This document shows, piece by piece, positions 9,472-18,960 of a stretch of DNA of 64,000 bases. The translations under genes and the position numbers were made by a program. Under the pieces are notes generated by a model. The model had not been told where the DNA came from. It did not search any database and was given only the letters and a program-made list of their open reading frames with translations. Source of the DNA: Prevotella sp. Lineage in GTDB: Bacteria > Bacteroidota > Bacteroidia > Bacteroidales > Bacteroidaceae. How positions within the stretch are numbered: the stretch's first letter is position 1; every line of letters begins with the position of its first letter. The stretch covers positions 58,844 to 122,843 of the forward strand of contig JAFZIY010000025.1 of assembly GCA_017554105.1 (NCBI GenBank). Direction: 5' to 3'.

Positions 9472-10968
9472 TTATAGAGTAACGCCGTTCTTGAAAATAG
9501 ATATCTCGCTATATCCATTCTCCTCATTGCGTGCTTTCTCACCGTTGGCGACAGCCAGAATCTTATCGATGAAACGTGGCAGCAGGTCTTGCATACTTGT
9601 GCCTTCCACGAGTTCCCCGGCGTTGAAGTCAATCCAGTTAGGCTTGTTCTTGGCAAGGGTGCTGTTAGTGGAAATCTTCATCGTTGGTATGAAGGTGCCG
9701 AATGGTGTTCCCCTTCCAGTGGTGAAGAGCACTATCTGGCATCCTGCTGAGGCGAGTGCCGTTGCAGCCACGAGATCGTTGCCGGGAGCAGAGAGGAGGT
9801 TAAGGCCGTTTGTCTGGAGACGGTCGCCATATTCGAGTACACCGCTAACCAGTGCACGACCGCACTTTTGCGTGCATCCCAGTGCCTTGTCCTCGAGGGT
9901 GGAGATGCCACCAGCCTTGTTTCCTGGCGAAGGATTCTCGCCAACGGGTTCTCCGTGGCTGAGGAAATACTCCTTGAAATTGTTTATAAGGCTCACGGTC
10001 TGCTGGAACAGTTCAGGTGTCTTGCAGCGGTTCATGAGGATGGTCTCGGCACCAAACATCTCAGGCACTTCAGTGAGGATTGTCGTTCCACCTTGTGCCA
10101 CAAGATAATCGGAGAATTCTCCTACGAGAGGATTTGCCGTGATACCACTGAAACCGTCACTGCCGCCACATTTCAGTCCTATGCGTAGTTTGCTCAGAGG
10201 ACATTCGGTACGCTTGTCTTTGCGTGCTATAGCGTATAGTTCCCTAAGAATCTTCATTCCTTCCTCTACTTCGTCGCCCACTACTTTCTGGGTGATTAGG
10301 AACTTTATGCGGTCGTGGTCGTAGTCACCCAGTAACTGCTCGAACTGCTCGGGCTGGTTGTTCTCGCATCCCAGGCTCAGAATGAGTACTGCACCAGCGT
10401 TGGGATGAAGCACGATGTCGCGCAATACCTTTCGGGTGTTCTCGTGGTCGCCTGACAGTTGGGAGCATCCGTAGTTGTGATGCCATGCGTGAACAGCGTC
10501 GATGCCTTCAAGGGATGTTTCTTTCTCGAGGCGTGAAGCAAGTCGCTCAGCAATTCCGTTGACACATCCTACGGTGGGGACTATCCATACCTCGTTGCGT
10601 ACTCCCACCTCGCCGTTTTTCCTCACATATCCATTGAATGTTCGGTTGTCTTTAGGGATGTAGAGTGAATCGTCAACAGGGTTATACTCATAGTTGAGAG
10701 TTCCTGCGAGATTAGTCTTGATATTGTTCTCGTTCACCCATTCCCCGCTTTTCAGGTCAACCATAGCGTGCCCAATAGGGTAGCCATACTTTATGATGTC
10801 CTGTCCTTTTTTAGCATCGTCGATGAGAATCTTGTGCCCCGCAGGAGTGTCCTGCTTCACTTCGATGTTCTTTCCGTCGATACTGAAGGACTCGCCTTTT
10901 GCGATGGCGCGAAGGCATACCACCACGGTGTCGAGGTTGTTGATTTTGATGAATGATGACTGTTCCAT
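9472..10968 (-). CDS. uxaA: Altronate dehydratase
   Basis: 498 residues, the length of full UxaA. It dehydrates D-altronate to 2-keto-3-deoxygluconate in galacturonate catabolism, using a metal centre. The N-terminal about 90 residues form the SAF-type domain (A-I-A-K-G-E, then HAMVDLKSGEWVNENN). The large C-terminal domain has the conserved WHHNYGCSQL and RIGLKCGGSDGFSGITANP blocks, typical of the altronate/galactarate dehydratase family. Galactarate dehydratase (GarD) is the alternative, but linkage with kdgK and eda makes altronate, which yields KDG, the better substrate. No uxaB, uxaC or uxuA is present here, so the upper pathway must be encoded elsewhere. Confidence 0.88.
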   Translation of the reverse strand: MEQSSFIKINNLDTVVVCLRAIAKGESFSIDGKNIEVKQDTPAGHKILIDDAKKGQDIIKYGYPIGHAMVDLKSGEWVNENNIKTNLAGTLNYEYNPVDDSLYIPKDNRTFNGYVRKNGEVGVRNEVWIVPTVGCVNGIAERLASRLEKETSLEGIDAVHAWHHNYGCSQLSGDHENTRKVLRDIVLHPNAGAVLILSLGCENNQPEQFEQLLGDYDHDRIKFLITQKVVGDEVEEGMKILRELYAIARKDKRTECPLSKLRIGLKCGGSDGFSGITANPLVGEFSDYLVAQGGTTILTEVPEMFGAETILMNRCKTPELFQQTVSLINNFKEYFLSHGEPVGENPSPGNKAGGISTLEDKALGCTQKCGRALVSGVLEYGDRLQTNGLNLLSAPGNDLVAATALASAGCQIVLFTTGRGTPFGTFIPTMKISTNSTLAKNKPNWIDFNAGELVEGTSMQDLLPRFIDKILAVANGEKARNEENGYSEISIFKNGVTL

Positions 10969-11013
10969 GGATTTGTTTTATTAGTTAGTTCAGTAGTTTT
11001 GTTATTTTAGTAG

Positions 11014-12078
11014 TTATATCATTTCCCGGTGGTAAAAATCAACGTTTTCTTTCGTAAGCAGTTCTATCGGCATGTAGTTGACTGTTTCCACGGATTGTTT
11101 CAGTACTATGGCCCGGAAGAGGGTGTCGATACAACTGTATCCTTGTTGGAAGGCATGTTGTGCAATGAGGAAAGATATGGAGCCTTCTTTCAGACACTTT
11201 GCATTCTTGTTTACCATATCATATCCCATTATCTGAACATTGCGACGGTTGTTCCGCAAGAGGTACTCGCCTACGATGTGGGCCTTTGAACACATCGTTA
11301 TGCAATGGTGCACGTCTGTATTCTCGTTGAAGTACTTGTCGAGAATTATATCATATTCTTTCTTGTCCTTTCCCATAGGAAGCTCAAGGCTTTTAATCTT
11401 TATCGACGGGAAGTGCTCACCCATATAGTGGCGGAATCCTACTTCGCGGTTCTCTTGTTGCTTGCTTGCCACTTTGCCGTTCTTGGTGAGTCGCATCAGC
11501 ATGATGCTTTTCTCCTCTTTGGCTATGAGCATCAGCATACGTGCCGCAAAATAGCCACTTCTGAAAGAGTCTTGCCCGTAAAAACTCAGAGGCTTCAGGT
11601 CTGGCATGAATGAGTCGAGGAGTACGAAAGGAATATTTCTTTCATGCAACTGGTCAGTATATTTCTTTGTTGTCTCAAGGTCACTCGGAATCACTATAAC
11701 TCCATTAGGTTCGCTTTCAAGCACCTCCTCAAAGACACCGGAGAATGACTCTTCGTCGAAACGCATGTAGTAGTTAAACTTCACCTCTACATGGAAGTCG
11801 CGCCGAAACTCACATGCCTTTGACGCTCCCTCTTCAATCTCCTGCCAGTAGGCCTCGCTCTCGTGCTTGGGAATTATGAGATGGAAAGTGTAGGACTTGT
11901 TGTATGCCAATGCGCTGGCATACATGTTAGGCTGATAGTTTATTTCTTTGAGAACTTTCTCAACTTTCGCTCTGGCAACTGCCGACACATTAGGGCGGTT
12001 ATGAATAATTCTGTCAACCGTTCCGACGGATACTCCAGCCTTCTCTGCAATGTCTTTTATTCTTACCTTTTGAGACAT
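11014..12078 (-). CDS. LacI-family transcriptional regulator of the KDG locus
   Basis: 354 residues. The N-terminal helix-turn-helix is classic LacI (VRIKDIAEKAGVSVGTVDRI, then the hinge helix R-A-K-V-E-K-V-L-K-E-I-N-Y-Q-P-N). It is followed by a periplasmic-binding-protein-like sensor domain (about 65-350), of the type with a variable sugar pocket rather than the ribose type. Divergent from kdgK, 245 bp away, and first in the strand that carries uxaA and nhaC. Three inverted-repeat sites in the shared upstream region make it the probable repressor of both arms, with KDG or a hexuronate-derived compound the likely inducer (inferred). Confidence 0.85.
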   Translation of the reverse strand: MSQKVRIKDIAEKAGVSVGTVDRIIHNRPNVSAVARAKVEKVLKEINYQPNMYASALAYNKSYTFHLIIPKHESEAYWQEIEEGASKACEFRRDFHVEVKFNYYMRFDEESFSGVFEEVLESEPNGVIVIPSDLETTKKYTDQLHERNIPFVLLDSFMPDLKPLSFYGQDSFRSGYFAARMLMLIAKEEKSIMLMRLTKNGKVASKQQENREVGFRHYMGEHFPSIKIKSLELPMGKDKKEYDIILDKYFNENTDVHHCITMCSKAHIVGEYLLRNNRRNVQIMGYDMVNKNAKCLKEGSISFLIAQHAFQQGYSCIDTLFRAIVLKQSVETVNYMPIELLTKENVDFYHREMI

Positions 12079-12125
12079 TTGATTTGTAGTTTGTTAATGT
12101 TAAAAATATAATCTTAAGCAAGATG

Positions 12126-12145
12126 TTTGCGCACACAAGTGCAAA
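12126..12145. promoter_or_regulatory. Candidate LacI-type operator 1
   Basis: TTTGCGCACACAAGTGCAAA: outer arms TTTGC/GCAAA match exactly, with a further partly matching base pair inside. It falls just downstream of the likely lacI -7 box, where binding would block transcription. Confidence 0.45.
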
Positions 12146-12154
12146 ATTTTGTTG

Positions 12155-12186
12155 CAAAAGTACAAATAAAAAGTTAATTGTGCGAA
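12155..12186 (-). promoter_or_regulatory. Possible lacI-uxaA promoter
   Basis: TACTTTTG on the minus strand (12155-12162) with a poor -33 element (TTCG, 12183-12186) 20 bp upstream. The -33 region is covered by candidate operator 2, so autoregulation is possible. Confidence 0.4.
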
Positions 12187-12192
12187 TGCACA
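12179..12192. promoter_or_regulatory. Candidate LacI-type operator 2
   Basis: TGTGC-GAAT-GCACA, a perfect 5-bp inverted repeat with a 4-base centre, located midway in the lacI-kdgK intergenic space. Confidence 0.5.
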
Positions 12193-12232
12193 GCTGTTTT
12201 TTTTTCTTTTCACTTATTTTTTTAGTTATTTA

Positions 12233-12264
12233 TTTGCTTATTTCCCTATAATATCTTAATTTTG
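12233..12264 (+). promoter_or_regulatory. kdgK-eda promoter
   Basis: TTTG (12233-12236), 20-bp spacer, TAATTTTG (12257-12264), giving a leader of roughly 50 bases before kdgK. Confidence 0.7.
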
Positions 12265-12274
12265 TGCTCGCAAA
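12261..12274. promoter_or_regulatory. Candidate LacI-type operator 3
   Basis: TTTGTGCTCGCAAA: TTTG/CAAA arms around a TGCTCG core, overlapping the -7 box and start point of the kdgK promoter, the classical place for repression. Confidence 0.45.
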
Positions 12275-12323
12275 CAATAATATTATAATTAAAATCTACA
12301 AACAAATCAAAAACAAAACAATT

Positions 12324-13346
12324 ATGGCAAAAATTGTAACATTGGGTGAGATAATGCTTCGCCTATCTCCACAGGGTAATGACCGTTTCATTCAGAGTGA
12401 GAGTTTTCGTATCATTCCTGGTGGCGGTGAGGCTAATGTGGCAATCTCTGTAGCCAACTATGGTCATGATGCTTATTTTGTATCCAAATTGCCAAAGCAT
12501 GAGATTGGCCAGATAGCAGTAAATGCTCTCCGCCGTTATGGTGTTAACACGGAGTATATTGCTCGCGGTGGCGACCGTGTAGGTCTCTACTATGCGGAGA
12601 CAGGTGCCAGCATGCGCCCTTCAAAGGTTATCTATGACCGTGCTCACAGTTCTATATCAGAAGCAGAGCCATCAGACTTTGACTTCGATGCTATTATGGA
12701 GGGTGCACAGTGGTTCCACTGGTCGGGCATTACACCGGCAATCTCCGACAAGGCTGCTGAGCTTACACGTCTTGCATGTGAGGCAGCAAAGCGTCACGGT
12801 GTGACTGTCAGCGTGGACCTGAACTTCCGCAAGAAGTTATGGACAAGCGAGAAGGCAATATCCATCATGCGTCCGCTGATGAAGTATGTTGACGTGTGCA
12901 TAGGAAATGAGGAAGATGCAGAACTCTGTCTCGGCTTCAAGCCAGACGCTGATGTTGAGGGAGGTAAGACAGACGCAAGTGGCTATGAGAAGATATTTAA
13001 GCAGATGAAAGAGGAATTCGGCTTCAAGTATGTGGTATCAACACTTCGTGAGTCGTTCTCTGCAACCTTCAATGGTTGGAAGGCTTTGATATATAATGGA
13101 GAGGAGTTCTATCAGAGCAAGCGCTATGAGATAAATCCTATTATCGACCGTGTTGGTGGTGGTGACTCATTCTCTGGTGGTCTTATACATGGATTGCTCA
13201 CAAAGAATAATCAGGGTGAGGCACTTGAGTTTGCTGTTGCGGCCTCTGCTCTTAAGCATACCATCAATGGAGACTTCAATCTTGTTTCTGTTGACGAGGT
13301 GGAGTCGCTTGCAGGTGGCAATGCCAACGGTCGTGTTCAGAGATAG
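12324..13346 (+). CDS. kdgK: 2-keto-3-deoxygluconate kinase (PfkB family)
   Basis: 340 residues from the ATG at 12324 (MAKIVTLGEIM). A longer in-frame start at 12264 lies inside the promoter and is rejected. It phosphorylates KDG to KDPG with ATP. PfkB features: the N-terminal GGGEANVAISVANYG, and the ATP/anion-hole signature D-R-V-G-G-G-D-S-F-S-G-G-L near residue 275, with the catalytic Asp in GGGDSF. Sugar specificity follows from the neighbours: KDPG aldolase directly downstream and altronate dehydratase across the divergent promoter. A different PfkB sugar is possible but unlikely here. Confidence 0.9.
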   Translation: MAKIVTLGEIMLRLSPQGNDRFIQSESFRIIPGGGEANVAISVANYGHDAYFVSKLPKHEIGQIAVNALRRYGVNTEYIARGGDRVGLYYAETGASMRPSKVIYDRAHSSISEAEPSDFDFDAIMEGAQWFHWSGITPAISDKAAELTRLACEAAKRHGVTVSVDLNFRKKLWTSEKAISIMRPLMKYVDVCIGNEEDAELCLGFKPDADVEGGKTDASGYEKIFKQMKEEFGFKYVVSTLRESFSATFNGWKALIYNGEEFYQSKRYEINPIIDRVGGGDSFSGGLIHGLLTKNNQGEALEFAVAASALKHTINGDFNLVSVDEVESLAGGNANGRVQR

Positions 13347-13407
13347 ATTAATTTGACGATTGGACAAATAGTAAAATCGTAAAATAGTATAATTGTATAA
13401 TAAAATC

Positions 13408-14076
13408 ATGGCAAAGTTTGATAAAATAGCCGTCTTAAAGAAAATAGGCGATACGGGAATGGTTCCTGTGTTCTATAATAAAGACCTTGAGATATGCAAG
13501 AACGTGGTGAAGGCTTGCTATGAGGGTGGAGTTCGCGCTTTTGAGTTTACTAATCGCGGAGACTTCGCTCAAGAGGTGTTTGGTGAGCTGGTGAAGTGGG
13601 CAGACAAGGAATGTCCAGAACTCGCACTCGGTATTGGCAGTGTCGTAGATGCTCCTACTGCTGCGCTCTACATTCAGTTGGGTGCAAACTTCGTTGTAGG
13701 ACCTCTGTTCAATCCAGACATAGCACCTGTATGCAACCGTCGCCTTGTTCCTTATTGTCCTGGTTGCGGAACACCTTCTGAAATAGGAAAGGCTCAGGAA
13801 CTTGGTTGCGACCTGACGAAACTTTTCCCGGGCGATGTCTATACACCCAAGATGGTGAAGGGACTTATGGCACCGATGAAGTGGTCGAAGATCATGGTAA
13901 CTGGTGGTGTGGCTCCTGAAAAGGAGAATCTCGAGGCGTGGTTCAAGGCTGGCGTCTTCTGTGTGGGAATGGGTTCAAAGCTCTTCCCCAAAGAAAAAGT
14001 GGCAGCAGGCGACTGGCAGTATGTTACTGATAAATGTAAGGAGGCTTTAGGTTACGTTGCTGAAGCGCGCAAGTGA
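13408..14076 (+). CDS. eda: KDPG/KHG aldolase
   Basis: 222 residues from ATG 13408 ([13 protein letters not shown]). The Schiff-base lysine is K138 in [14 protein letters not shown], and E46 in [10 protein letters not shown] is the general base position. The conserved substrate loops are [19 protein letters not shown] and [12 protein letters not shown]. It cleaves 2-keto-3-deoxy-6-phosphogluconate to pyruvate and glyceraldehyde-3-phosphate, closing the pathway begun by UxaA and KdgK. It follows kdgK by about 60 bases, and its last 20 bases overlap the start of the sensor-kinase gene. Confidence 0.93.
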
Positions 14077-17000
14077 TAAATACGTTGCAAAGGACTCGAT
14101 ATGGCTCATCGTCATATTGGGTCTTTTGTGTTTTTCAGCTTGTCAGAATAATCCCAATAGGGCAGAGGTGGACAGGTTGAACTCTATTTCTTATGCATAC
14201 CACTACAAAAACATAGACTCCACCATCCACTATGCGAGGGAAGCATATAGACTGTCAGACAACTATAATGATGGTAGGGCTGAGGCTCTGAATAATATAG
14301 CCTTTGCAAGTATTGCAAGGATGAACTATCTTGATGCTTACAAACAACTTGACAGCATAGAGGTTATTACAAGCAATCAGGTAGAGCTTCTCATAGCACA
14401 CATACAACAAATGCGACTGTGCCAGCGCGAATCGCACAACAAGGAGTTTTATGACTATCTTGAGAAAGCGACGAAGTGCTTGAAGCGCATCAATGAATCG
14501 CGAGATATGCTCAGCAACAGACAACTCTCGCGTATGGTATATGCTGAGAGTGAGTTGGCAATAGTCACATCTACGTATTATTATTATGTTGGACTTGAGA
14601 AAGAATCACAAGATGCGTTAATGGCTATTGATGCCAACGGAGAGATACAGAAAGACTCCGCACAGCTTATGAACTATCTTTACCAGATAGGAGCGGGAGG
14701 AATAATCACCGAAGGGACGCAGGCAGAGATTAATCAGGCTGAGTGGTATTACCTGATGCGCTGCTATTTTCTTGCTGTGCAGAGCGGAAGTGTTTATTGG
14801 GAAGCAAACTCTCTGCAATCGATGAGCGAGCATCTCCTGGATAAGAGTAGCCGTGAGAAGATAATTGTCGATAACCTTTCTGACATAAATTACATCAATG
14901 TAGACAATATGCCTGACAGCCTACTTGCAGGCTATTTTGCACAGAGGTCGCTAAATTTGTTTCTCGGTCTTGGTGATGTATATCAGACAGCAGGATCCTA
15001 TCGAACCCTTGCCTCATGTTTCTGGGGAGTGGGTGATTTCCCCTCCGCTTTGATTTGTCTTGAGGACGCATTAGGTAAGGATAAACGTATAGAGCAGGCA
15101 CCAGACCTTGTGGCAAGTATTCGTGAACAGATGTCGCTCGTCAATTCTGCAATGGACGACAAACCAGCCAGCGACGACAATCGTAACATTTATCTGGACC
15201 TCCAGGATATGACACGACAAGACCGTCATCTGGAGGCGCGTGCAGAACAACTTGATCGTTCGTCGAGACAACTAAACATAATGATTGTGGCTGTTCTCGT
15301 CACCATTGTCATTGCTGTGGCTATGATGTTCTTCTTTGACTATCTACGCCGTAAGAAACAGAAGAAGAATTCTCTCGACTCTCTTCTTCATCCATTGGAG
15401 CAGTGGCAGTCAGACAACCTTATAGCCAATAATGCATTAGATGAGCGGTATGAGGAGATAAATGAGGCATACGCACTCAATGTTATACACATAGCAAACA
15501 ACAAGAAGCGTAATCTTGAGAATCGTGCTAAGATATTCTTAGTTAACAGTATAATGCCGCTCATTGACCGCATGATTAACGAGGTTAATAGGTTAAAGGG
15601 ATATAATGAGCCAGCGGAGGTGAGGACTGAGAGGTATAACTACGTGGCGGAGTTAACAGACAAGATAAACGACTATAACAACGTACTCACACAATGGATA
15701 CAGTTACGGCAGGGTGACTTGAATATGCATATCGAGAGTTTCCCGCTCGAAGATACCTTCGGAGTGGTGCGCAAGGGAAGGATGTCGTTCCAGCTTAAGG
15801 GTATAAACCTCATAGTGGAGCCTACAGACTTTAGTGTAAAGGCTGACAAGGTGCTTACGCTCTTTATGCTTAACACACTTGCCGATAATGCGCGCAAGTT
15901 TACCCCCGAGGGTGGCACCGTAACAATATCCTCAACATCTACCGACGACTATGTTGAGATATCTGTTCGTGATACCGGCAAAGGAATGTCTGCTGACCAG
16001 TTGTCAGGCATTTTTGACCATAAGGTATATAACGGACATGGGTTTGGACTTATGAATTGCAAGGGTATTATTGAGAAATACCGTAAGATAAGTCAGATTT
16101 TCAATGTGTGCCGGCTGTCGGCGGAGAGTGAAGAGGGCAAGGGTAGCCGATTCTTCTTCCGCTTGCCTCATGGTATTGTGAGAACCATCATTGCATTTGT
16201 TCTGATGATGTCTGCCTGTGGCATAAATGCTGCTGACACTTCGCTGAAGATGGCAGCCAAATATGCTGATAGCGCATATTTCTCAAACATCAATGGCAGA
16301 TATGAACAGACATTGCAATTCGCGGACAGTGTTAGGAAGTATATCAATATAAGATATAAGCATTTGGTTCCTAATGGTAATGCGCTAATGGAACGTGAAG
16401 GCAATGTCAAGTCAGAGCCGGCAGAGATAGCATGGTTTCATGACAGTCTCGATATTGACTATAACATTATTCTCGACATACGCAATGAGAGTGCTGTAGC
16501 CGCTCTTGCCTTACACAACTGGTCACTATACCGCTACAACAACCGCATCTATACAATGCTTTTCAAGGAGAGGTCGGCAGACAAGAATCTTGCCGCGTAT
16601 TGTAGAAAGATGCAAACGTCGGAATCGAACAAGATGATAGCAATTGCTATGCTTTTCTTGCTTTTCCTGATAATTCTTGTAGCGTACTATTTCCTCTATT
16701 ATCGACACCGCATCAACTATGAATATTGCATGGAACAGGTGGGATATATTAACGATATTCTACTGAGTGAAAAGGATGATGAGGAAAAACTTGCGCTGAT
16801 TTCACCAATATCCACAAGCAAATACCCTGAGCCGCTAAGTGATATTGTTGACAAGGTTAAGCAGGCATTGGAGTCGTCAGTAAGGAACTCCAAGGAGAAA
16901 CGTGATGTTATAGAATTGGCTGAGGATGAGCGTAGGCGTGCAGAGTTTGAGGATGACAAGCTACACGTTAGTAACAATGTGTTAGACAACTGTCTTAGCA

Positions 17001-17569
17001 CATTGAAGCATGAGACGATGTACTATCCTTCTCGCATTCGTCAAATAGTTGATGAGGTAAATAACGACAACACTACAGAAGACCCGCAAAAGCTTCAGGC
17101 AATAGATGAGCTGTTGTCATATTACAAGGAGCTTTACTCAATACTAAGCGCACAGGCAATGAGGCAGGTAAATGTGGTGAAGAATAAGTGCGTGCAAGTG
17201 AGTTCCAACGATATAATACAGTCTAATGTTGAGGATGTAAATGTAATGGGCGACCCATTAATGCTTAAGCATCTCTTTGACATCTTACAGAAACAAAACG
17301 GAGGGGCATTCGCTAGTGTAGGAGCGAAAGAGAGAGGAGGATATGTTGATTTTATGCTTGAGATGGACAAATTGGATTATAGAGACATCTTCGTTCCATC
17401 GATGGAAAACATACCTTTCATGATATGTCGCCAGATAGTGAGGGAGAATAGTGAAAGTACCAATCAGCGAGGATGTGGAATTGTGGCACAGCCATTAGAA
17501 GAACGAGGCACACTTGTCACAGTCACTCTTGCCGCACCCGCAAAAAAGATATTATCAAAAAAGTTCTAA
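14057..17569 (+). CDS. Double-lobed sensor histidine kinase (DUF5112/DUF5113-like)
   Basis: 1170 residues starting at TTG, inside the end of eda; no in-frame ATG occurs for about 88 codons, and TTG restores a lipoprotein-like leader (hydrophobic 16-28, Cys29 in C-F-S-A-C). Layout: helical repeat region (about 35-370), transmembrane helix (407-428), a dimerisation-like helix pair lacking the usual histidine ([10 protein letters not shown] at 495-504), then an intact HATPase (N box about 605-615, D-T-G-K-G-M 639-644, G-H-G-F-G-L 660-665). A second leader-like stretch follows (708-721, ending M-S-A-C), another extracytoplasmic domain, a transmembrane helix (860-882), and a His-box-like motif L-K-H-E-T-M-Y-Y-P with H985. 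The final ATPase-like lobe has lost its N and G boxes. It resembles Bacteroidetes DUF5112/5113 proteins and is followed by its response regulator. Confidence 0.75.
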
Positions 17570-17599: not shown

Positions 17600-18328
17600 A
17601 TGGAAAACTTCAAAGTAATCATCGTAGAGGATGTGCCATTAGAATTGAAAGGCACAGAAGGAATATTCCGCAATGATATCCCTGAAGCAGAGATAATAGG
17701 AACCGCAGAAAGCGAGGTTTCCTATTGGAGACTCATGAAGCAGCAAAAGCCAGACATGGTGCTTCTTGACCTTGGACTCGGAGGCTCAACCACTGTTGGC
17801 GTTGAGATATGTCGCCAGACAAAAGAGATGTATCCTGCAATAAAGATACTCATCTTCACTGGCGAAATACTTAACGAGAAACTTTGGGTAGATGTGCTTG
17901 ATGCCGGATGTGATGGTATTTGCCTGAAGAGTGGTGAACTGCTGACGCGTGACGATGTTGTCAGCGTTATGACAGGAAAGAAAATGGTGTTCAACCAGCC
18001 AATACTTGAAAAAATACTCGAACGTTTCAAGCATAGCGTTAGCACACAGTTGATGCGGCAAGAGGCTCTCGTGGATTATGAGATTGATGAGTATGATGAA
18101 CGATTCCTTCGTCATCTCGCGCTTGGATACACAAAGGAGCAGATAACAAACCTCAGGGGAATGCCATTCGGAGTGAAAAGCCTTGAGAAAAGACAAAATG
18201 AGCTTGTACAGAAATTATTCCCCAATGGAGGTAGAGGAGGAGCAGGAGTAAATGCAACAAGGCTTGTTGTTAGGGCACTTGAACTGAGAATTATCGATCT
18301 CGATAATCTATTGCCCGACGACGAATAA
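17600..18328 (+). CDS. Response regulator, NarL/LuxR-type output
   Basis: 242 residues. The receiver domain (1 to about 125) has acidic pair E10/D11, phosphorylation site D57 (MVLLDLGLGG), T87 (ILIFTGE) and K110 (ICLKSGE), a complete active site. After a linker, residues 165-208 (ERFLRHLALGYTKEQITNLR onward, with VKSLEKRQNELVQKLFP) form a LuxR-like helix-turn-helix, though less typical than FixJ/NarL because the recognition helix carries S-L-E-K-R. It starts 30 bases after the sensor kinase and is its evident partner. Target genes are unknown; the KDG locus itself or the following membrane gene are the first candidates. Confidence 0.85.
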   Translation: MENFKVIIVEDVPLELKGTEGIFRNDIPEAEIIGTAESEVSYWRLMKQQKPDMVLLDLGLGGSTTVGVEICRQTKEMYPAIKILIFTGEILNEKLWVDVLDAGCDGICLKSGELLTRDDVVSVMTGKKMVFNQPILEKILERFKHSVSTQLMRQEALVDYEIDEYDERFLRHLALGYTKEQITNLRGMPFGVKSLEKRQNELVQKLFPNGGRGGAGVNATRLVVRALELRIIDLDNLLPDDE

Positions 18329-18351: not shown

Positions 18352-18960
18352 ATGGAGAAGACTAAACGCATCGCTCTCATAATATGTAAGTTACTACTAA
18401 TTGCGAACCTGTTGGTAGTGTTGCTCTCATGGATTATCAGTGCTATGGGAAATACCGACATACGTTCGTTAATTAGTAGTGAAGGACTTAGATGGTTCTT
18501 GGGCAACTATGTTGACATAATTGCCACGCCGGTACTTGCTTGGTTACTGCTTTTGGCAATAGCATATAGTTGCTTTCGACAAAGCGGACTGTCAGATGCC
18601 CTAAGCAAACGATTCATGGGCGATAAGCTGATGTTCAAACAACGTCTTGCCTTACGTGTGACAATCATCGCATTGATAGCGATAATTGCTATAGTCTCTC
18701 TATTGGTGTTCACTCCGCATGCGGTATTGCTAAGTCCCGTCGGAAGCATATTTCCTTCGCCGTTCAGCAGGAGCATAATACCTATCATTGCGGGAACAGT
18801 TACCATTCTCTCTCTCCTTTACGGATTAGTCAGCGGTACCATTAATAATGCTGAAACGGCATTCATGTGTCTCTATAGCGAGATTAAGAATCTGTTTCCG
18901 ATATTCATTATATATATTCTCGCCGCTCAATTATACGCCTGTCTGCGTTTTGTGTTCTAA
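18352..18960 (+). CDS. Miniature AbgT-like membrane protein
   Basis: 202 residues with about five membrane helices. Two blocks resemble the p-aminobenzoyl-glutamate transporter family: LISSEGLRWFLGNYVDII...QSGLSDAL (about 40-85) resembles the AbgT N-terminal L-L-S-x-E-G-L-x-W-F-L region, and SPFSRSIIPIIAG...LLYGLVSGTI (about 138-166) the later S-P-F-x-x-x-I-V-P region. The usual protein is about 500 residues; here the intervening helices and the whole C-terminal half, including the substrate hairpins, are absent. The reading frame is clean, so it is a shortened family member rather than a broken gene. Likely not a transporter; a membrane partner of the kinase is a guess from its position 24 bases behind the response regulator. 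Comparison is from memory of AbgT. Confidence 0.6.
   Translation: MEKTKRIALIICKLLLIANLLVVLLSWIISAMGNTDIRSLISSEGLRWFLGNYVDIIATPVLAWLLLLAIAYSCFRQSGLSDALSKRFMGDKLMFKQRLALRVTIIALIAIIAIVSLLVFTPHAVLLSPVGSIFPSPFSRSIIPIIAGTVTILSLLYGLVSGTINNAETAFMCLYSEIKNLFPIFIIYILAAQLYACLRFVF

Follow-up and report, generated by a model that had tools for sequence, protein, structure and literature searches.

A Prevotella sensor kinase with its ATP site and acceptor histidine in different halves of one chain, a probable product of in-gene duplication and complementary loss

Histidine kinases are generally symmetric dimers, which makes the role of each half hard to ask. CheA3 and CheA4 of Rhodobacter sphaeroides form a split kinase on two CheA-class proteins (PMC3591291; PMC6829392), and in Synechocystis a CheA homologue is split over two distant genes, Hik36 and Hik43, whose products interact in a two-hybrid assay (PMC7656254). 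HisKA proteins without a HATPase domain make up 1556 of 42417 (PMC3591291), DivL of Caulobacter is a known pseudokinase (PMC4211667, PMC9430884), and the "tandem kinase" of PMC12471899 is KdpD with an added serine kinase domain, which is a different thing. Among the papers listed in a search by title and start of abstract, with most subscription papers outside its coverage, there was no one-chain histidine kinase described as tandem, dual, heterodimeric, split or degenerate, and no papers on DUF5112, DUF5113 or DUF5932 were found in the literature searched. Here, we describe a two-lobe sensor kinase encoded in a 64,000-nt stretch of Prevotella sp. DNA (contig JAFZIY010000025.1), the whole of which is called the window below. 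The gene (14057-17569, + strand; 1170 residues from a TTG start; 193 orthologues aligned) probably encodes a split histidine kinase in one chain. This would have arisen by in-gene duplication and complementary loss, with its two dimerisation domains (DHp1 and DHp2) paired as a pseudo-heterodimer and phosphate passing from its first ATPase domain (CA1) to H985 and on to D57 of the adjacent response regulator.

Along the chain, whose residue numbers are used throughout and whose features all lie on the + strand, there follow one another a leader ending in Cys29, a DUF5112 sensor, a partial DUF5113, a membrane helix, a first kinase-like lobe with an intact HATPase_c, a second helix, a DUF5113, a third helix and a second lobe. 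Lobe 1 consists of DHp1 (15464-15781; approximate limits, from hhalign), a dimerisation domain without an acceptor histidine and with N497 (15545-15547) at the lost site, followed by CA1 (15782-16174; Pfam HATPase_c), an intact ATPase domain with N611 (15887-15889), the G1 motif D639-T-G-K-G643 (15971-15985) and the G2 motif G660-H-G-F-G664 (16034-16048). Lobe 2 consists of DHp2 (16919-17212; approximate limits), with the acceptor H985 (17009-17011) inside K984-H985-E-T-M-Y-Y-P991, and CA2 (17213-17551), which profile comparison, Pfam and alignment mark as a degenerate ATPase-fold domain that has lost its motifs.

These half-sites were followed through an alignment of 193 rows, made up of the window, 59 loci and a further 133 loci, with some counts taken from a 60-row subset. 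N611, D639, G641, G643, G662 and G664 of lobe 1 are each invariant in the 193 orthologues, as are K984, H985, E986 and P991 of lobe 2, and given this invariance the motif pattern is not due to chance. The lobe-1 counterpart of H985 in the hhalign alignment is residue 497. Of the 193 orthologues, 102 have N there, 33 have T, 18 have Y and six have His, with varied residues in the others, so that the site is unconstrained; the lobe-1 acceptor site is without a histidine in 187. HATPase_c with its N, G1 and G2 motifs, the mark of a histidine kinase, is held by lobe 1 only (193/193), and the conserved histidine belongs not to the DHp of that lobe but to lobe 2. By motif, ATP site and acceptor histidine lie on individually incomplete units, as in a split kinase; the two distinct proteins of a split kinase are absent, a single frame holding both lobes at 193 of 193 loci. 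Recent decay or a frameshift artefact is ruled out, since both lobes are open and conserved at all of these loci.

The ATPase domain of lobe 2 has not vanished. Pfam HATPase_c is matched by 60 of 60 lobe 1s and, at E ≤ 0.1, by 39 of 60 lobe 2s (best 3.9e-9), the window's own lobe 2 giving no HATPase_c match in Pfam, and among solved structures, the ATPase domains of kinases are still recognised by the lobe-2 profile, with 3a0t as the best match (E 6e-9). The N-box Asn is N in one of the 193 lobe 2s, and the second G2 glycine is replaced by E, P or Q in 160; many rows cannot be mapped with certainty at the N, G1 and G2 columns, 91 having a gap at the N-box and 106 at the first G2 glycine. With gaps counted as loss, 169 of the 193 lack the N, lack Gly at either G1 place and lack Gly at the second G2 place. 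Leftovers persist here and there (the N in L124, both G1 glycines in L076, the second G2 glycine in L079), and the complete set occurs in 0 of 193. F1112 (192/193) and D1066 (186/193) are still kept, so the CA2 fold seems to be maintained by selection. On these comparisons, lobe 2 is a worn, recognisable degenerate HATPase fold.

An earlier note on this DNA, made from its letters alone, had held that lobe 1 keeps N, G1 and G2 and lacks the acceptor histidine, and had proposed a family alignment to see whether the half-sites are always complementary. The alignment bears out both points, save for the six orthologues with a lobe-1 histidine, and a search by sequence through the 193 orthologues turned up neither of the two things that would have told against the note, a conserved histidine in lobe 1 or, in lobe 2, a normal ATP site. 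The lobe-2 motif L-K-H-E-T-M-Y-Y-P stands as well, whereas the note's view of this lobe as one with no recognisable ATP motifs is corrected by the degenerate ATPase domain just described. The note had also seen two leader-like stretches, ending at Cys29 and Cys721. The former is conserved (188/193; 56/60 in the subset), while the latter cysteine is present in just 10 of 60, which rules it out as an internal lipoprotein signal and makes a membrane helix the best reading of the second "leader". What the earlier reading missed was the internal duplication of the two halves.

That duplication is evident from the comparison of lobe 1 and lobe 2 profiles, which align over 280 columns (hhalign; probability 99.0, E 2.1e-18). 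The end of the N-terminal sensor likewise matches the middle sensor (probability 97.4, E 1e-11), and DUF5113 matches twice within one frame, both in the window genome and among the other family members listed. Among the matches listed, many genomes of other genera have two near-full-model DUF5113 matches per frame, in frames of about 1420-1540 codons, and 88 of the 193 aligned frames reach at least 1280 residues. In the window kinase, the first copy (15080-15349; genome search, G000:C23:73923-74192) is reduced to model positions 73-161. The paired matches and the frame lengths therefore show that the kinase half was duplicated in tandem and that the first DUF5113 copy was trimmed in the shorter forms. 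A fusion of two unrelated kinases is ruled out, since the lobes and the DUF5113 segments that precede them are homologous.

Relatives with a single lobe offer a view of the form that may have been duplicated. Searching with the lobe-2 profile uncovered a protein of 709 residues, P0002 (L191:2236-4362:-), in another Bacteroidales family, and the single-lobe set used here comprises P0002, L202, L203 and L230-L258, from two other families of the order. Across the order, 17 of 393 genomes match P0002 at E ≤ 1e-20, near whole length in three only. Further single-lobe kinases occur in 49 of 121 genomes of the second family, confined to one of its 12 genera; 60 genomes of the first family hold only the two already known, and the single-lobe relatives found total 51. 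In all 32 that were aligned, one lobe carries the histidine, the Asp next to it, the N-box Asn, the G1 Asp, both G1 glycines and both G2 glycines. The single-lobe core matches lobe 1 at E 2e-37 and lobe 2 at E 5e-28, while the two lobes match each other at E 5e-19 in the same test. Thus, because the single-lobe relatives hold both histidine and ATP motifs and are closer in profile to either lobe than the lobes are to one another, it appears that a complete kinase was duplicated and that its copies decayed in complementary fashion. By eye, the single-lobe core combines features of the two lobes: its C-L-S-x-x-x-H-D-x-x-P-F resembles C-L-S-I-V-N-G-I-T-P-Y of lobe 1, and its H-D-D-x-T-x-R-G-C resembles H-D-E-x-x-x-R-R-G-C of lobe 2. 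In a quick tree built from 25 lobe-1 rows, 25 lobe-2 rows, 14 single-lobe rows and 23 other kinases, which gave long-branch warnings, lobes 1, lobes 2 and singles are united against the other kinases (support 98) and form separate groups (100, 100 and 98). Like the two-lobe kinase, the single-lobe form has a lipobox-like leader, a sensor with a profile match to that of DUF5112 (E 6e-27), a core homologous to both lobes and an adjacent related regulator. Unlike it, the single-lobe form keeps histidine and ATP motifs in one lobe and, in the one protein tested, leaves Pfam DUF5112 and DUF5113 unmatched; in L228, the single locus checked for this, what follows the regulator is not AbgT-like, in contrast to the two-lobe cluster.

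Taken together, these observations suggest the following course of events. A kinase of the single-lobe type, with a lipobox, a DUF5112-like sensor, a DHp histidine, a working ATPase and an adjoining DUF5932-type regulator, would have been the starting form. The sensor end, membrane helix and kinase core would then have been duplicated in tandem inside the gene; the duplication itself is seen in the sequence, and the ancestor's likeness to the extant single-lobe form is presumed. The acceptor histidine was then lost from lobe 1 and the ATP site from lobe 2, both losses being visible in the present chain. DHp1 and DHp2 would each contribute half of a four-helix bundle to make a pseudo-heterodimer, in which ATP bound to CA1 would phosphorylate H985 on DHp2. 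Since lobe 1 is without a histidine, phosphotransfer would have to run from lobe to lobe, and the phosphate would pass from H985 to D57 of the adjacent DUF5932 regulator, which is predicted to bind DNA. That lobe 1 phosphorylates H985 had already been proposed in the earlier note, and it is the best reading of the half-sites at 193 of 193 loci, the complete single-lobe relatives and, more weakly, the DHp coupling; the transfer itself is what we infer. Mean-field coupling was computed on the 193 rows (effective number 128), with row shuffles as the null. Of the top 20, 40 and 80 couplings between DHp1 and DHp2, 11, 18 and 29 fall within the bands of a four-helix bundle, against 4.5, 9.0 and 18.1 expected by area, and in none of the three cases did any of 30 row shuffles score as high.

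Several results weigh against this reading. A histidine stands at residue 497 in six of the 193 orthologues; the residues that follow it are S, A, N, G, S and S, none of them acidic. The sensor of the single-lobe kinases does not match DUF5113 copy 2 (probability 1.4), and neither DUF5112 nor DUF5113 was matched in Pfam by P0002, the one tested, so that DUF5113 is not established for the ancestor. The single-lobe relatives that were found come from no more than two genera outside the window's family, and the quick tree, with its long branches, does not fix the order in which the two lobes and the single lobe branch. As for the coupling, the bundle bands were derived from the hairpin loops at a point when the first couplings were already known, and among the top 10 couplings, six lie in the bands against 2.3 expected, with two of 30 row shuffles as high. 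A test on band means looked good against column permutation, and the row-shuffle null showed much of that signal to be positional: a1-a1 was no better than row shuffles, a2-a1 was above all 20 and a1-a2 was not, and the hairpins within each lobe, which served as positive controls, did no better (z 1.3). Because the bands were chosen afterwards, the band-mean tests are weak and the control hairpins are no stronger, the coupling lends moderate support to the packing of DHp1 and DHp2 in one four-helix bundle. It fits packing between chains as well. A functional histidine remaining in lobe 1 is ruled out as a separate candidate, since the six orthologues that have one lack the following acid, as against His-Asp in 32 of 32 single-lobe relatives.

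Kinases are normally homodimeric, and this usual habit speaks for an arrangement in which each DHp has its own counterpart on a second chain as partner (DHp1 with DHp1', DHp2 with DHp2'), with CA1 reaching H985 across chains; the chemistry would be the same and the geometry would differ. DHp1 is itself well conserved, with P501, D504 and R505 near-invariant, as such pairing would have it. The DHp1-DHp2 coupling that falls in shared-bundle bands points the other way, though it is modest and missing in some tests, and we consider the homodimeric arrangement unlikely. The lobes are distant in the chain, with a second periplasmic domain between them, and this would also suit a different kinase phosphorylating H985, lobe 1 then being a regulatory ATPase or having another target. 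Both half-sites, however, are invariant in one gene (193/193), the gene has its own adjacent regulator, and the single-lobe relatives hold both half-sites in one lobe, all of which makes an outside kinase very improbable. It is hardly more credible, and if anything slightly less so, that the protein is mainly a phosphatase or a non-phosphorylating coupler with a structural role for H985. Degenerate kinases can run backwards, and a Caulobacter kinase is described as having an output domain repurposed as an input sensor (PMC4211667). However, every ATP motif is kept in CA1, which a pure coupler would not need, and the phosphatase motif HE/DxxN/T given in PMC3591291 is not matched, residue 989 being Tyr in 57 of 60.

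The DUF5112 (TPR-like) extracytoplasmic sensor (14168-14962; residues 38-302) matches PF17139 with E 6e-107 and 357.4 bits (gathering cut-off 29.4), and DUF5113 copy 2 (16235-16705; residues 727-883), which would provide a second extracytoplasmic input, matches PF17140 with E 1e-63 and 214.5 bits (cut-off 27.1), both above their cut-offs; HATPase_c is matched between them at residues 604-705 (E 2e-18). Hydrophobic stretches lie near residues 9-29, 402-431, 705-725 and 855-884. They correspond to the N-terminal leader with its lipobox-like last residue Cys29 (14057-14143), in which hydropathy reaches at least 1.6 in 179 of 189 sequences, to membrane helix 1 (about residues 404-426; 15266-15334; 193/193 at the same threshold), to helix 2 (about 705-725; 16169-16231; 164/192), which contains the poorly conserved Cys721, and to helix 3 within DUF5113 copy 2 (16625-16702; 193/193). 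Since DUF5112 precedes the ATP half and DUF5113 precedes the histidine half, output is expected to depend on how the two sensors are placed relative to each other, and two-input control by DUF5112 and DUF5113 is plausible. None of the 16 Pfam families matched in the chain at E ≤ 1 is a receiver domain, and the protein is thus not a hybrid histidine kinase. At the leader, the TTG start overlaps the 3' end of an aldolase gene (14057-14076), and an in-frame ATG before Cys29 is absent; a Leu codon also opens the frame at the same place in three close relatives (L101-L103).

The likely partner of the kinase is encoded directly downstream. The response regulator (17600-18328, + strand) has a receiver domain (REC) with the acid pair, Asp, Thr and Lys, and a DUF5932 domain, as identified by Pfam; D57 is encoded at 17768-17770, and none of E10, D11, D57, T87 and K110 varies in the 164 regulators aligned. 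By translated search, such a regulator lies downstream of the two-lobe kinase at 184 of the 188 loci with sufficient sequence (an earlier subset gave 55 of 58), and it was not found in L178, L063, L065 and L080. This count replaces an earlier cluster count of 165 of 192, in which greedy frame picking is guessed to have hidden genes. A related regulator follows the single-lobe kinase at 30 of 31 loci. One of these in Pfam gives 26.2 bits for DUF5932 (cut-off 23.7) and 21.3 bits for the receiver, below its cut-off of 30.2; those of the second family are identified by similarity only. Order-wide, DUF5932 occurs in seven of 386 genomes, five in the window's family and two with a single-lobe kinase.

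The third gene of the cluster (18352-18960, + strand) encodes a shortened AbgT-like membrane protein of 202 residues (PF03806, E 5e-9), and an AbgT-like gene holds this place at 172 of 180 loci with enough sequence. The same order is annotated in a Bacteroides finegoldii record, as DUF5113 protein, DUF5932 protein and AbgT family transporter. Among 167 clustered AbgT-like relatives near the kinase, with frames called mechanically, 137 have at most 300 residues, 29 have at least 380 and one lies between. The short forms match two separate parts of a 506-residue form (11-173 and 254-370 for L051; 35-141 and 263-367 for the window's protein), which indicates that they are without the middle stretch and the C-terminal part. 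The short protein is a transporter that has shrunk in place, and it may now be a signalling part. The fullest version of the proposal, in which an obligate pseudo-heterodimeric kinase made by in-gene duplication, with each half behind its own periplasmic sensor, would act as a two-input gate and the shrunken AbgT protein as a third, membrane-embedded signalling part, is a tentative one that we regard as rather doubtful.

DUF5113 occurs in 233 of 301 sampled genomes of the window's GTDB family (25 of 30 genera), and in 30 chosen genomes DUF5112 is present in 20 of 20 with DUF5113 and in 0 of 10 without it. In an order-wide sample, eight of 198 genomes match DUF5113; three of these, all of the window's family, have two strong matches each, and the other five, of other families, match weakly, G120 passing the cut-off if neighbouring matches are summed. 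The lobe profiles matched none of the loci taken from these five genomes (L192-L195 and L199). Among the best 80 of 588 relatives, the closest named are Prevotella sp. UBA4330 and P. koreensis, at 77% identity (best segment, near full length). Two records that contain the kinase are labelled as plasmids: in L312 (NZ_OY725923.1), it stands beside genes such as kdsB and ribose-phosphate pyrophosphokinase, and L313 (NC_022111.1) is 1.77 Mb long. Each looks more like part of a chromosome, or a second chromosome, than an ordinary plasmid. Upstream of the kinase, the window (9472-14076) encodes a KDPG/KHG aldolase and a PfkB sugar kinase; the opposite strand there carries a LacI-type regulator together with an altronate-dehydratase-like gene. 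Among the 193 loci, related genes are again found close to the kinase (aldolase 69, PfkB 67, LacI-type 67, altronate-dehydratase-like 48), and a ribose-phosphate pyrophosphokinase-like gene, named by eye and from an annotated record, is near it in 21.

Most sampled genomes of the window's family thus keep what appears to be an asymmetric pair, a single chain that has one ATP site and one acceptor. If the proposed mechanism is true, single substitutions could directly probe sensor asymmetry, two-input logic and the question of whether phosphate moves inside a chain or from chain to chain, and a role can be assigned to three Pfam families, DUF5112, DUF5113 and DUF5932. The living single-lobe relatives would represent the state before duplication and could be compared directly with the two-lobe state after it. 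Among the closest known systems, CheA3 and CheA4 are alike in that an ATP-using kinase and a histidine-bearing acceptor are separate, work only together and serve one downstream regulator. They differ in being two proteins with the histidine on a P1 domain, whereas here duplicated DHp-CA lobes share one membrane chain. In Hik36-Hik43, too, kinase function is divided between two parts, which there lie on two distant genes, and DivL resembles the present lobes as a retained kinase-like protein that has lost its normal role. DivL is a separate protein that controls CckA and not a one-chain pair of complementary halves. Ultimately, by motif, the Prevotella kinase would work like a split kinase, yet it departs from the described cases in that both of its parts share one protein.

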